From NCBI GenBank assembly GCA_003646935.1, contig QMLW01000148.1:1-5923 (forward strand): a stretch of DNA of 5,923 bases, given 5' to 3'. The position numbers and the translations under genes were made by a program. Below are positions 1 to 4,799 of this stretch, one piece after another (the stretch's first letter is position 1; the number at the start of each line of letters is the position of its first letter). Under the pieces are notes generated by a model. It was given only the letters and a program-made list of their open reading frames with translations, made no database searches and was not told where the DNA came from. Origin of the DNA: Deltaproteobacteria bacterium. Its GTDB lineage: Bacteria > Desulfobacterota > DSM-4660 > Desulfatiglandales > B25-G16.

Positions 1-19
1 CATTGCTTTTAAAACCAAC

Positions 20-57
20 ACTCCAATATTCCACCATTCCATTATTCCATGTGTGAG
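20..57 (+). repeat. ATTCCA-type interspersed repeat downstream of mvhD
   Basis: Near-tandem units of 8-9 bases (ACTCCAAT, ATTCCACC, ATTCCATT, ATTCCA) ending in TGTGTGAG. It has the same unit and the same ATGTGAG-like end as the copies in the hdrB-hdrA gap, so one repeat family flanks the hdrA-mvhD pair on both sides. Confidence 0.6.
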
Positions 58-76
58 ACAATATGGAACAGTCTCA
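54..76. repeat. Small inverted repeat after mvhD
   Basis: TGAGAC (54-59) and GTCTCA (71-76) can pair around an 11-base loop. A run of seven A (76-82) follows on the plus strand. On the minus strand, where transcription arrives from mvhD, the T-run comes before the hairpin instead of after it, so this is not a canonical terminator. The remainder of 1-157 holds nothing else recognisable. Confidence 0.3.
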
Positions 77-157
77 AAAAAACCTTTTTAATTTCAATAA
101 GTTGTAGAATTTCCGAGACGTTAGCTCTGTATTGTGATCTGTATTTATGCCAATTCA

Positions 158-598
158 CTACGCGGCTTGTTTCTCCCTGCCTGCTCCTTTGATCGGATTT
201 GGGCCCAGGGCCACGATCCTCTCGTGCATCTCCAGGGCCACCTCCGCAAACCGGGGACCGTCTGAGGCAGCGATGTTATACATCTCCAGCCTCTCTCCAC
301 CAATCCCGATCTCATCCAGGAGCTTTTTCGCGTACTCCACCCTCTTCTTGGCCCTCAGGTTGCCGGTGAGGTAATGACACTCTCCTTCAAGACAGCCCGC
401 CACGTATACCCCATCTGCACCCTTTTGAAAGGCCCTCAGGATGTGGATGACGTCTACCTTGCCGGTACAGGGCAGCCGTATAATCCTGATGCTATCGGGG
501 TAGCTGAGACGCATGGTACCTGCCAGGTCCGCCGCTTCATAGCCTCAGTATATACAGCAGAATGCCACGATTATCGGCTTAAATCCCTCCATGTTCAT
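158..598 (-). CDS. mvhD: MvhD-like hydrogenase/Hdr iron-sulfur adaptor subunit, predicted selenoprotein (Sec18 encoded by UGA)
   Basis: MvhD-family proteins carry one [2Fe-2S] cluster and pass electrons from a hydrogenase or dehydrogenase to the HdrA flavin; the protein should be cytoplasmic. The frame gives 146 residues. The N-terminus reads FCCIY-U-GYEAADLAG (from residue 13), matching the family pattern FCCxWCxYxxAD, with an in-frame TGA (545-547) at the second-cluster-cysteine position. Other family cysteines are intact: C14, C15, C44 (LPCTGK), C69 and C74 (AGCLEGECH). The ATG at 598 overlaps the hdrA stop (ATGA) and follows GGAGG by 4 nt; ATG 592 (Met3) is a possible alternative start with 10 nt spacing. 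A conventional start at 514 would give 118 residues and drop the conserved N-terminus. Translational coupling to hdrA is likely. The family is clear. The Sec reading is an inference from motif position and the hairpin after the UGA; a nonsense mutation or sequencing error is the alternative. Confidence 0.88.
515..530 (-). promoter_or_regulatory. Putative bacterial SECIS hairpin for the UGA codon of mvhD
   Basis: Starting 15 nt after the UGA, the mRNA reads GGACCUGGCAGGUACC. It can fold as GG/CC plus ACCU/AGGU with one bulged A and a short GGC loop (or UGGCA if the closing U-A pair opens). The first loop G lies 21 nt after the UGA, close to the spacing in E. coli fdhF (about 19 nt), and a G early in the apical loop is the usual bacterial SECIS feature. 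A separate basal stem, CUGAGGC with GUCUCAG (7 pairs including one G-U), encloses the UGA and the hairpin. Structure was assigned by eye, without an energy calculation, and SelB binding is inferred. Confidence 0.6.
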
Positions 599-3500
599 AT
601 CGCCTCCAGCAGTGCGTCGATCTGCGCCAGGACCTGAACATCCTCAAAATGAGAGAGCGTAATGGCCTTTGCCGGGCACTCAGCGGCGCAGACCCCGCAG
701 CCCTGACACTTGGAGATGTCGATCTCCGAAACCCCATCCTCGTTGATGAACGGTACCTCGTAGGGACAGGCCCTCACACAGATTAGACAAGCGGCACAGA
801 GCTCCGGATCTACCTTTGCTACCACCCCTCCCACCTCTATGCGATCTTGGCAGAGCAAACGGCAGGCCCTCCCAGATGCGGCGAGGGCCTGGGAGATGCT
901 CTCGTCGATCCTCTTGGGCGAGTGTGCCATGCCGCAGATGAAGATGCCGTCGTATTGGGTGTCAACGGGACGAAGCTTTACATGTGCCTCCAGAAAAAAG
1001 CCCTCCGCGGTGAGGGGAACCTTGAGTATGTTCGCGAGCTCCTCGTTGTCTCCCGCGACCACGCCCGTGCTCAGGATTACCTGATCGGGGCTCACGGTTA
1101 CCTCCCTGCCTAGGGTGTAGTCCTGAAAGCCGACCCGAATCCTACCCTGAACCTCCTCCACAACCGGTTCATGATCATCCTTGTATCGCAGGAAGCGTAT
1201 CCCCATCTCCCGGGCCGTTCGGTAGAAGTCCTCGGCGAATCCGTAGGTCCTGATATCCCTGTGGAGTACGTAGATATCCGCATCAGGATTGATCTCCTTT
1301 ACGGCAATGGCATTCTTTATGGCCTGCTGACAACAGACGCGGCTGCAATTGGGGTTCGCATCCGTTCTCGAGCCCACACACTGGATCATCACCACCGTGT
1401 GCCAGTCCTTGATCCTGTCTCTCTGGCTTATTACCATCTCCTCTAGCTCTACCTGGGTCTTTACCGCCTCATGCTGCCCGTAGAGGTATTCCTCGGGATG
1501 ATATTCACGAGCCCCTGTGGCAATCACGAGCGCTCCGTGATTGATCTCCCGGTGATACATGGCGGGCCCTACATTGAGGGAGGTCTTGTAATTTCCCTTG
1601 GAACCGGAGAAATCCGTGAGCATAGTCTCGGTAAGGACCTCGATCCTGTCGGTGTGTTGAACCCGCTCAATGAGGCTATCCACATAGCCCTGGACATCAT
1701 CGCCCTGGAGGGTCCTGTGGATCTTTCTGCTCATGCCCCCTAATTCCTTATCCAATTCCACCAGCACCACCTCGAAGCCCTGAGCGGCGATGTTCAGCGC
1801 AGCTGTCATGCCCGCGATTCCGCCGCCAAGAACAAGGGCCCTTTTGATCACCGGAAGTTTGGTTCTGTAGAGCGGGGAGAGCTCCGCTGCGTTGGCAATG
1901 GCCATCCTCACCAGGTCCTTGGCCTTTTGCGTGGCACTTTCTTTATCGGTCTGATGCACCCAAGAGTCTTGATCCCGAATGTTGGCCATACTGAAGAGGT
2001 AGGGGTTGAGGCCCGCCTCTCTGATGGTATCCTGAAACAAGGGTTCGTGTGTCCGGGTGGAGCATGACGCCACCACCACCCTATTGAGCGAGTGCTCGTG
2101 TATCAATTCCTTTATCCTGACCTGCGTGTCCTGGGAACAGGTGAACAGGTTCTCCTCGGCTACCACCACACCTGGCAAGGTGGAAGCATACTTGGTCACT
2201 TCCGGCACATCGACCACACTGCCTATATTTATCCCGCAGTGGCAAACGAACACGCCGATGCGAGGTTCTTGTCCGCTGACATCTATCTCATCGGGGTATT
2301 CCTTCTCCCTGGTAAGGGCAAATCGCTCCACCGAAAGCAGGCTGGATGCCGCGGCACCGGCGCCGCTTGCCTGCATCACCGTTTCTGGTATATCCTTCGG
2401 GCCCTGAAAGGCGCCGCACACGAATATTCCCGGCCTGGTGGTCTGTACCGGTTCGAACGATTCCGTGTTCACGAACTGATAATGGTTGAGCTCGACACCT
2501 AATTGGCGGGCAAGCTCGATGGAGCTCTGCGGTATATCAAAACCAACCGACAGGACCACCATGTCGAATTCCTCGTGGGCAACCCTTCCGGCCTCATCCG
2601 TATACCTAATCCTCAGGCTTCCCTCCTCCCCTCCCGGCAGAATGCCATCTATCCTGGATTTAGCAAACCTAACCCCTGCATCCTTTGCCCTCATATAAAA
2701 TTTCTCGAAATCCTTTCCATAGGTCCTGATATCGATAAAGAAGACTGCTGTATCGAGGGGCTCATCGCTGTGTTCCTTGGCAACCAAACACTGTTTTATA
2801 GCATAGGTGCAGCATACACCCGAGCAATAACCCTTATCGCCAATATGGGTGTTCCTCGATCCCACGCACTGAAGCCAGGCGATCTTGTTTGGTTCTCTTC
2901 CGTCGGAGGGACGCACGAGGTGACCCTGATAGGGGCCCGATGCGCTCAGGATCCTCTCAAATTCAAGGCTAGTCAAAACATTGGAGAAGTGCCGATATTG
3001 ATAGGTGTCGTGGACTGCTGGATCATAGGGCTCAAAGCCGGGGGCCATGATGATCGCTCCCACATCCACGGTGATCTCCCTTTGGACCTGATCGAAATCC
3101 ACGGCATCTGCCGGGCAGAATTTCTCACAGGCGCGGCACTTGCCTTTTTCGAAATAGATGCAGCGGTCTTTATCGATGAGGTATTTGAGGGGAACGGCCT
3201 GAGGATAGAGTATGTACGCCGCCTTCCGTTGAATCAAGCCGGTGTTGTATTCGTCGGCGGTCTTTCTGGGACATTTGTCTGCACAGGTGCCACAGGCAAT
3301 GCATTTATCAACATCGATATACCTGGGCTGCTGAACGAGTCTGACGTGGAAATTGCCGGCTTCGCCCGTTACGCTCTCTATCTCGGAAAGGGTAAGGATC
3401 TCGATGTTCAGGTGTTTGCCGCACTCCACCAGCTTGGGCGAGAGGATGCACATGGAGCAGTCATTGGTGGGAAACGTCTTATCCAGTTGCGACATACGGC

Positions 3501-3627
3501 CGCCGATGCTGGACGCTCGTTCAACCAGGTATACGTAGAATCCGGAATCCGCCAGATCGAGGGCCGCCTGAATGCCGCCGATGCCGCCGCCGACTACCAT
3601 GGCCGAGCCGATCACGTCTTTCGCCAT
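595..3627 (-). CDS. hdrA: Double-length (fused) HdrA-like FAD/iron-sulfur oxidoreductase
   Basis: HdrA is the flavin subunit of heterodisulfide-reductase-type complexes; its FAD can split electron pairs between high- and low-potential acceptors. At 1010 residues this is well above a single HdrA (about 650), and it contains two units. Unit 1: FAD-binding GGGIGG (residues 13-18), CSMC (57-60), an inserted ferredoxin domain with C109/112/115/119 and C156/164/167/171, QCVGSR (253-258) and YCSGVCC (267-273). Unit 2: an HdrA N-terminal domain (from about 456; VCHCGINIG, C497, C522), a second FAD fold with GGGIAG (601-606), QCVGSR (749-754), NCSRVCC (760-766), and a C-terminal ferredoxin domain with C944/947/950/954 and C974/977/980/984. 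Unit 1 lacks the N-terminal domain and unit 2 lacks the inserted ferredoxin. The start is supported by GAGGGG 5 nt upstream and by the Rossmann motif near the N-terminus. The stop overlaps the mvhD start. Cytoplasmic. Bifurcation is inferred from the family; the acceptors are unknown. Confidence 0.95.
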   Translation of the reverse strand: MAKDVIGSAMVVGGGIGGIQAALDLADSGFYVYLVERASSIGGRMSQLDKTFPTNDCSMCILSPKLVECGKHLNIEILTLSEIESVTGEAGNFHVRLVQQPRYIDVDKCIACGTCADKCPRKTADEYNTGLIQRKAAYILYPQAVPLKYLIDKDRCIYFEKGKCRACEKFCPADAVDFDQVQREITVDVGAIIMAPGFEPYDPAVHDTYQYRHFSNVLTSLEFERILSASGPYQGHLVRPSDGREPNKIAWLQCVGSRNTHIGDKGYCSGVCCTYAIKQCLVAKEHSDEPLDTAVFFIDIRTYGKDFEKFYMRAKDAGVRFAKSRIDGILPGGEEGSLRIRYTDEAGRVAHEEFDMVVLSVGFDIPQSSIELARQLGVELNHYQFVNTESFEPVQTTRPGIFVCGAFQGPKDIPETVMQASGAGAAASSLLSVERFALTREKEYPDEIDVSGQEPRIGVFVCHCGINIGSVVDVPEVTKYASTLPGVVVAEENLFTCSQDTQVRIKELIHEHSLNRVVVASCSTRTHEPLFQDTIREAGLNPYLFSMANIRDQDSWVHQTDKESATQKAKDLVRMAIANAAELSPLYRTKLPVIKRALVLGGGIAGMTAALNIAAQGFEVVLVELDKELGGMSRKIHRTLQGDDVQGYVDSLIERVQHTDRIEVLTETMLTDFSGSKGNYKTSLNVGPAMYHREINHGALVIATGAREYHPEEYLYGQHEAVKTQVELEEMVISQRDRIKDWHTVVMIQCVGSRTDANPNCSRVCCQQAIKNAIAVKEINPDADIYVLHRDIRTYGFAEDFYRTAREMGIRFLRYKDDHEPVVEEVQGRIRVGFQDYTLGREVTVSPDQVILSTGVVAGDNEELANILKVPLTAEGFFLEAHVKLRPVDTQYDGIFICGMAHSPKRIDESISQALAASGRACRLLCQDRIEVGGVVAKVDPELCAACLICVRACPYEVPFINEDGVSEIDISKCQGCGVCAAECPAKAITLSHFEDVQVLAQIDALLEAI
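603..607 (-). promoter_or_regulatory. Ribosome-binding site of mvhD inside the 3' end of hdrA
   Basis: GGAGG on the minus strand, 4 nt before ATG 598 and 10 nt before ATG 592. It supports starting mvhD upstream of the UGA, since a start at 514 would leave this Shine-Dalgarno sequence without a gene. Confidence 0.7.
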
Positions 3628-3666: not shown

Positions 3667-3702
3667 CACTCACATGGGATAATGGAATAGTGGAATGTTG
3701 TT
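3667..3702 (-). repeat. ATTCCA-type interspersed repeat, inverted copy (left arm)
   Basis: On the plus strand it begins CACTCACAT and continues with TGGAATAGTGGAATG. Its reverse complement closely matches the repeat at 3794-3830, including the terminal ATGTGAG. The two arms are about 90 bases apart and could pair into a long imperfect stem. Confidence 0.65.
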
Positions 3703-3793: not shown

Positions 3794-3830
3794 ACATTAT
3801 TCCACCATTCCACCATTCCAAATGTGAGCG
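3794..3830 (+). repeat. ATTCCA-type interspersed repeat (right arm)
   Basis: Contains three near-tandem 8-base units, ATTCCACC ATTCCACC ATTCCA, followed by AATGTGAGCG. It is the inverted partner of 3667-3702 and the same family as the copy at 20-57. It lies just after the hdrB stop in the direction of transcription. Confidence 0.65.
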
Positions 3831-3926: not shown

Positions 3927-4799
3927 CTACTCCGATAGGAACTTCTCAACCGAGGTTATCTCTATGTGGTTCATTTCCAAACCAAGGGCGCGGCTGTCAA
4001 TGCCGAGGCTCAGTCCCAGAAGCTGTGGATAGAGGATGGGAGGCAGAAGATGATTTCCACCCCGTTCCCTGTGGAGCATCCTTTGAACGGTATCGAACTG
4101 GATATGGCAGTAGGGACATCCAACACAGAGGTACGCCGCCCCTGATTTCCTGGCGTTTATCACCTTTTTCTCCGTGAGATCCATTGATAGATCGTCATTC
4201 ACCCCAAACAAGGGAGCACCACAACAATCAAGCCGTGCCTGCCAGTCGATGCTCTCCGCGCCCGTTGCCTCCACTAGGGTATCAAAGAGCGTGGGGTTCA
4301 CGGGATCATCAAATTGGGTAACCTCGCTGGGCCTGAGTGCATGGCACCCATAGTGGGTTGCTATCTTGAGCTCTTGAAAGGGCCTGGTGACCTTCTCCTT
4401 GATAGCCTCTATACCCACATCATGATAGAGAACAGACAGCAGATGTTTGATCTCGATATCTCCTTCAAAACGCATTCCTTCCCTTGCAAGCAGCGCGTTT
4501 ATCTCCGACCTGAGGGCGGGGTTTTCCTTCAGGTGATAGTACGCATGCTTGAGCATGCCGAAGCCGCATTTACAGAGCACGAGCATATTGAGATTCTGCT
4601 TCTCGGCAAGGGCGAGATTTCTCGCGGAAGAAAGAATGGCCGCCCTGTAGTCGGTGTTTCGTATCGGATATCCGCAACAGTTGAATTCCTTGATCTCCTG
4701 GAGCCCTATACCGAATGTTTCCAGTACCGCCCTTGAAGAGGATTCATACTGTTGCAGCCGAGCAGGAATGGTACAGCCCAAAAAGAACGCGAATTTCAT
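3927..4799 (-). CDS. hdrB: HdrB-like heterodisulfide reductase subunit B, two CCG domains
   Basis: HdrB carries the catalytic site of Hdr complexes: two CCG domains, each binding a non-cubane iron-sulfur cluster that reduces a disulfide or relays electrons. The 290-residue length is normal for the family. The N-terminus MKFAFFLGC is typical and supports the start, although the ribosome-binding site is poor (GAGG only 1 nt from ATG). Domain 1 has C9, C41-C42 and then C76-K-C78-G79, where CxxC is expected. Domain 2 has C152 (HYGCHALRP), C192-C193 (DCCGAP) and C225/C228/C231 (CVGCPYCHIQF), so the usual CxxC is present. Its neighbours are the HdrC fusion, 70 bases upstream, and hdrA, 299 bases downstream. 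A role with HdrA and HdrC is well supported by context; the physiological substrate is unknown, and coenzyme M-coenzyme B heterodisulfide is unlikely in a bacterium. Confidence 0.93.
   Translation of the reverse strand: MKFAFFLGCTIPARLQQYESSSRAVLETFGIGLQEIKEFNCCGYPIRNTDYRAAILSSARNLALAEKQNLNMLVLCKCGFGMLKHAYYHLKENPALRSEINALLAREGMRFEGDIEIKHLLSVLYHDVGIEAIKEKVTRPFQELKIATHYGCHALRPSEVTQFDDPVNPTLFDTLVEATGAESIDWQARLDCCGAPLFGVNDDLSMDLTEKKVINARKSGAAYLCVGCPYCHIQFDTVQRMLHRERGGNHLLPPILYPQLLGLSLGIDSRALGLEMNHIEITSVEKFLSE

Follow-up and report, generated by a model that had tools for sequence, protein, structure and literature searches.

The stretch of DNA analysed here (the window: all 5,923 nucleotides of contig QMLW01000148.1, from the metagenome of a member of the Deltaproteobacteria) carries a gene cluster on its minus strand in the order hdrC-hdrB-hdrA-mvhD, with mvhD as the last gene (Table 1). 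Unlike the methanogen Mvh-Hdr complexes, the cluster in the window includes neither mvhA nor mvhG, which suggests that the Hdr complex encoded here works with an electron partner other than the one specified by those two genes. A longer relative of the truncated HdrC (locus L088, 11050-12438) has a membrane part of the nitrate-reductase-gamma type (30.2 bits, cut-off 22.9) that precedes its iron-sulfur part, and the HdrC of this HdrABC-type cluster is probably membrane-bound as well. The gene order at L088 is unlike that of the window in that the hdrC-like gene lies downstream of mvhD.

Table 1. Features of the window, with the basis for each assignment
Feature	Position	Strand	Basis or remark
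mvhD (FlpD/MvhD family)	158..592	-	likely from ATG 592-590 through the TGA to stop 160-158; PF02662 and start comparison across 24 rows
In-frame TGA, predicted selenocysteine codon (site A), second Cys of CxxC	545..547	-	
SECIS-type hairpin GGACCU-GGC-AGGU(A)CC	515..530	-	frozen codons and fold of a short piece
GGAGG, likely ribosome-binding site	603..607	-	sequence and similar spacing in relatives
hdrA-like gene, 1010 aa, cysteine form	595..3627	-	NF040770, 973.8 bits, under the curated cut-off of 1100
hdrB-like gene, two CCG cysteine-rich domains	3927..4799	-	TIGR03288, 241.1 bits, under the cut-off of 345.15
hdrC-like iron-sulfur protein gene, cut by the contig end	4870..5922	-	profile search

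A search of the window against Rfam returned a weak Hrs1 match alone (24.4 bits against a gathering score of 56.4), and promoter and terminator scans of window positions 1-700 gave results at chance level. The intergenic segments at 24-57, 3683-3696 and 3795-3828 contain common ATTCCACCATTCCA-type repeats, for which four matches with at most one mismatch were observed and zero are expected in shuffled sequence.

The mvhD reading frame and its start

When the mvhD frame is read from ATG 598-596 to its stop codon, the TGA falls at residue 18, and reading through it yields a product of 146 residues with a single TGA, MNMEGFKPIIVAFCCIYUGYEAADLAG... This read-through product matches the Pfam family FlpD (PF02662) with 167.7 bits against a cut-off of 22.3, covering profile positions 1-123 of 123. 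With the VhuD profile NF045873 it reaches 193.6 bits, below the curated cut-off of 215, and thus we do not file it as VhuD. An alignment and the family set described below show the conserved cysteines in the window product, with Cys or Sec at CxxC. The main elements of a preliminary description of this DNA are confirmed, namely a frame with one TGA, an ATG at 598-596 that overlaps the hdrA stop codon at 597-595, and a GGAGG at 607-603. Its claim that the TGA replaces a family cysteine also holds, in that the codon sits where cysteine homologues encode the second Cys of CxxC.

The proposed start codon fares less well, although the frame that opens at ATG 598-596 is real. We compared the upstream DNA of 24 locus rows, some of these being the same gene entered with two different locus ids. 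An ATG or GTG aligns with window residue 3 (ATG 592-590) in 23 of the rows, and in the exception, L052, the ATG comes one codon further on; in none of the 24 does an ATG align with ATG 598-596. The GGAGG lies 10 bases ahead of ATG 592-590. Given the alignment of the relatives' starts with this codon, translation more likely begins at 592-590 than at 598-596, and a predicted product of 144 residues is more likely than the 146 first given. Along the eight codons that precede the TGA, the amino acids are kept while synonymous codons are free (normalised synonymous entropy 0.71-0.98), as judged from the aligned sequences, and this segment is evolving as coding sequence.

Automated annotation has handled such genes as the preliminary description anticipated when it predicted that gene callers would truncate the product by 28 residues and lose the motif. 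The database entry for the window's own product (P0002) is a protein of 118 residues that begins downstream of the TGA. Among the best 120 of 7927 database hits, 31 proteins of 117-118 residues, including this one, all begin at a methionine downstream of the TGA; every longer protein (89 of 89) has cysteine at site A. Among these listed matches, therefore, the selenocysteine form appears only shortened.

Recurrence of the TGA and a frozen codon block

A search with the protein in 99 genomes (its own and 98 relatives) gave a match in 97, and in nine further genomes from the same family the best match has one TGA and 78-84% identity. From 234 loci, 211 distinct genes that pass two motif filters were assembled as a family set; 11 of the loci failed the filters and were dropped, including L224, L232 and L240, each with one TGA. 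Because genes were sampled for their similarity to a selenocysteine query, the fraction of selenocysteine genes among the 211 is no census: 112 have TGA at site A only, 16 at a second position (site B) only and 8 at both, and 75 have cysteine at both. Site A is therefore TGA in 120 distinct genes. All 75 cysteine genes of this filtered set have the CxxC, and five Cys/Sec positions are conserved in 211 of 211 genes, four of the five being required by the filter. Close relatives can differ at site A, as illustrated by the orthologue-like gene L026 (G096), which is 71% identical to the window product and shares its CxxC region but has cysteine at this position. With both sites masked, a FastTree tree requires no fewer than 11 changes at site A and no fewer than nine at site B; the tree leaves 83 of 207 inner branches open and was used for these minimum counts only.

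A selenocysteine codon in bacteria would be expected to be followed by a structural signal in the mRNA. For the 48 bases that follow the TGA, total folding energy shows no excess stability over synonymous-codon shuffles, in TGA and cysteine genes alike. A codon-by-codon constraint test was chosen after this negative result, and the case for a hairpin thus rests on codon constraint. Among the 120 site-A genes, the normalised synonymous entropy is as low as 0.11-0.20 at codons 5-9 past the TGA, compared with 0.57-0.97 in the cysteine group. The other codons of the site-A genes between -8 and +54 have values of at least 0.54, except for codon 10 (0.47) and codon 11, where only nine sequences are informative. 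This frozen block, GCG GAC CTG GCA GGT, folds as GGACCU-GGC-AGGU followed by CC. In bacterial SECIS elements the first base of the loop is a G; the window hairpin, which includes a bulged A, likewise has G as its first loop base, at a distance of 20 bases from the TGA.

The distribution of the block among the family provides the controls. All five consensus codons occur in 107 of the 115 non-archaeal site-A genes and four of the five in the other eight, such that 115 of 115 match at least four; the cysteine group reaches this level in 2 of 75 genes and the archaeal TGA group in 0 of 5. None of the 75 cysteine genes matches all five, and the two that match four (L162 and L215) may still show traces of a TGA that has been lost. 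Counts for the five archaeal genes are 0, 0, 1, 2 and 2 codons, and these genes serve as a natural negative control since the available text of one report describes archaeal frhD SECIS elements in the 3'-UTR (PMC11227280). Elsewhere in the same TGA genes the block codons are used in an ordinary manner (18-51% of their synonymous sets). Fisher tests on individual codons of the block give p values from 2e-11 to 3e-38, which are descriptive only because the sequences are related. Judging by this constraint and its controls, the hairpin is of the bacterial SECIS type.

One feature of the alignment counts against this assignment. Methionine 29, located just after the block, is present in 111 of the 120 TGA genes and in 30 of the 75 cysteine genes, and a genuine start codon at this position would predict the same bias.

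Interpretation of the TGA codon

We consider it very probable that the TGA in mvhD specifies selenocysteine through the bacterial SelB/SECIS route, and that the selenium is likely to reside at or beside the [2Fe-2S] cluster. The same interpretation in the preliminary description gains support from the recurrence of the codon in orthologues, from the presence of tRNA-Sec, selA and selD and from the SECIS-type hairpin. The FlpD match across the TGA, the non-standard residue X at this position in the solved homologue 9sfi_K and the published CxxU motif of the family also speak for it; the failure to find selB in the window's own assembly and the score under the VhuD cut-off count against it. The proposed check for the selenocysteine machinery was made on the source assembly, a metagenome assembly of 2.38 Mb in 429 contigs that is 73.88% complete. 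It contains a tRNA-Sec (73.8 bits, anticodon tca) and matches to selA (600.7 bits) and selD (394 bits), but selB was not found in it, the best match being 40 bits. Matches to selB exceed the curated cut-off in 77 of the 99 genomes searched and in 12 of 17 relatives from the same family. Many other genomes also yield selB-profile matches of about 180-197 bits in frames of about 400 residues, which we read as EF-Tu; these too are absent from the source assembly, and this fits its incompleteness. The corresponding tally for tRNA-Sec (87 of 99 genomes over the cut-off) is overstated because a tRNA-Trp of the window's own genome passes as well (L006, 50.3 bits). The selD gene of this genome (L249, about 1420-2600 on the plus strand, G000:C106) has one in-frame TGA within a GUACK motif, and its SelD is probably a selenoprotein itself.

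Given that the databases already hold a 118-residue version of the protein (P0002), it seems appropriate to ask whether the TGA is a real stop and translation begins at ATG 514-512. The high frequency of Met 29 among the TGA genes (111 of 120) agrees with such a start. Even so, we regard this explanation as very improbable. It leaves codons upstream of the TGA that evolve as coding sequence, it yields a protein devoid of the CxxC carried by every cysteine gene of the filtered set, and it disregards both the cysteine found at the TGA position in all of the longer database proteins noted above and the frozen hairpin codons, which precede Met 29. Translation from 514 only, the counter-case named in the preliminary description, is contradicted by the freezing of those codons in the non-archaeal TGA copies and not in the cysteine or archaeal ones. 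A sequencing error or a dead gene might be suspected in a metagenome assembly as fragmented as this one, but the chance seems negligible, since the same codon recurs in many separate genomes with frames intact on both sides. Equally hard to credit is a genome-wide use of TGA as a normal sense codon, for which nothing speaks beyond the in-frame TGAs themselves; the genome has a selenocysteine system (tRNA-Sec, selA and selD), and we rejected this explanation because hdrA itself ends in TGA, directly before mvhD.

The selenocysteine reading leaves room for two views of what the residue does. If SelB binds the hairpin, selenocysteine would be inserted at the TGA, and we infer that this residue ligates or tunes the [2Fe-2S] cluster. 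In the complexes studied so far, MvhD has such a cluster, and electrons move through it towards the FAD of HdrA, according to the portions of the reports available (PMC6019823, PMC12350162). By analogy with these relatives, the window's MvhD would pass electrons from a partner enzyme towards the bifurcating FAD of HdrA, and selenium might alter the cluster potential, the electron-transfer rate or the oxygen tolerance relative to the cysteine form. Alternatively, the selenocysteine might be inserted yet remain a free selenol beside the cluster that serves redox chemistry or protects against oxygen. This rival concerns mechanism and not the identity of the residue, and it draws on the presence of five conserved Cys/Sec positions (in all 211 genes, with four required by the filter) where a [2Fe-2S] cluster needs four ligands. 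We consider it a possibility of some substance, albeit a rather doubtful one.

Known relatives and two predicted positions for selenium

It is important to note that selenocysteine forms of FrhD/MvhD/VhuD, including the CxxU position, have been in print since at least 2006, and the window gene is a further member of this group; the preliminary description noted that such forms exist for VhuD of some methanogens. The accessible passages of earlier papers describe, in 2006, selenocysteine FrhD from both archaea and bacteria, 19 of the members being bacterial, along with operons that include hdrA (PMC1794560), four mvhD selenoproteins (mvhD1, 2, 3 and 5) in Desulfobacterium autotrophicum (PMC2702500), an mvhD selenoprotein with a SECIS in Desulfococcus multivorans, where BamE, and not the BamF cited in the preliminary description, is also named as a selenoprotein (PMC5109826), and a CxxU motif for the FrhD/MvhD family in an ocean survey (PMC2398784). 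In the part of a 2026 review consulted, a table gives CxxU and the figure 2 for the family, which we read as the number of selenocysteine residues, and multiple selenocysteines are noted for archaeal members (PMC13188914). The FrhD/MvhD proteins from Deltaproteobacteria (PMC1794560, PMC2702500, PMC5109826) are of the same family as the window product and share its selenocysteine TGA and neighbouring hdrA. From the passages at hand, which do not compare selenocysteine positions among paralogues, no difference from the window gene is established.

The VhuD proteins of Methanococcales (loci L092-L094 from Methanothermococcus, and PDB 9sfi and 9t1s by sequence) resemble the window gene in having TGA or X at the U of CxxU. 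They differ from it in having no hairpin block in the coding region, and in L092-L094 there is TGA at site B as well. The solved delta subunit 9sfi_K (also in 9t1s) has a non-standard residue X at sites A and B, and since L092-L094 have TGA at both places, our reading of the aligned sequences is that X would be selenocysteine. The MvhD of the methanogen Mvh-Hdr and Fdh-Hdr complexes (PDB 5odc, 7bkb) belongs to the window's family and acts as the electron connector to HdrA. We presume that these methanogen proteins have cysteine in place of the window TGA.

Site B lies in the motif GU....C, 51 residues after site A, and bacterial genes with TGA at this position have a block of their own at codons 6-11 after it, usually (C/A)AT T(T/A)C CTG GAN GGN AAT. 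The six corresponding stem pairs can all be formed by 18 of 20 bacterial site-B genes, by none of the four archaeal ones and by 5 of the 187 genes whose site B is cysteine. One of the pairs varies on both sides, being T-A in 12 genes, A-T in four and T-G in two. Both failures (L060 and L061) belong to a group of four bacterial MvhD genes in which TGA occupies sites A and B together, the other two being L209 and L230. Two hairpin types are thus observed in the sequences, GGACCU-GGC-AGGU at site A and either ATTTCC...GGAAAT or ATTACC...GGTAAT at site B.

The two sites can also be divided between copies within one genome. In 12 of the 78 genomes represented by the 211 genes, a gene with TGA at site A and another with TGA at site B occur as distinct copies, and the genome of the window is one of these 12. 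Its second MvhD gene (L001; G000:C173, 1459-1890, minus strand) is on another contig, with an intact CAWC, TGA at site B within GUHPGEC and its own hairpin, in which the block takes the TAC/GGT form. In the passages of the mainly open-access literature searched, we found no account of bacterial MvhD with selenocysteine at site B only or of a division of sites among paralogues. We tentatively propose, with a confidence slightly short of even, that bacterial MvhD proteins carry selenium at either of two fixed cysteines of the cluster region, each served by its own mRNA hairpin, and that paralogues divide these sites between them, with selenium differently placed for different Hdr partners. In the last part of this proposal, the placement of selenium may be tuned to the partner.

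The preliminary description therefore spotted a selenoprotein correctly, one that the databases keep as a truncated copy without its CxxU motif. The block GCG GAC CTG GCA GGT after the TGA offers a simple signature by which such genes can be recognized. Furthermore, with two sites to compare, the choice of one cysteine over the other for selenium in this electron connector of heterodisulfide-reductase complexes becomes a question that can be tested.
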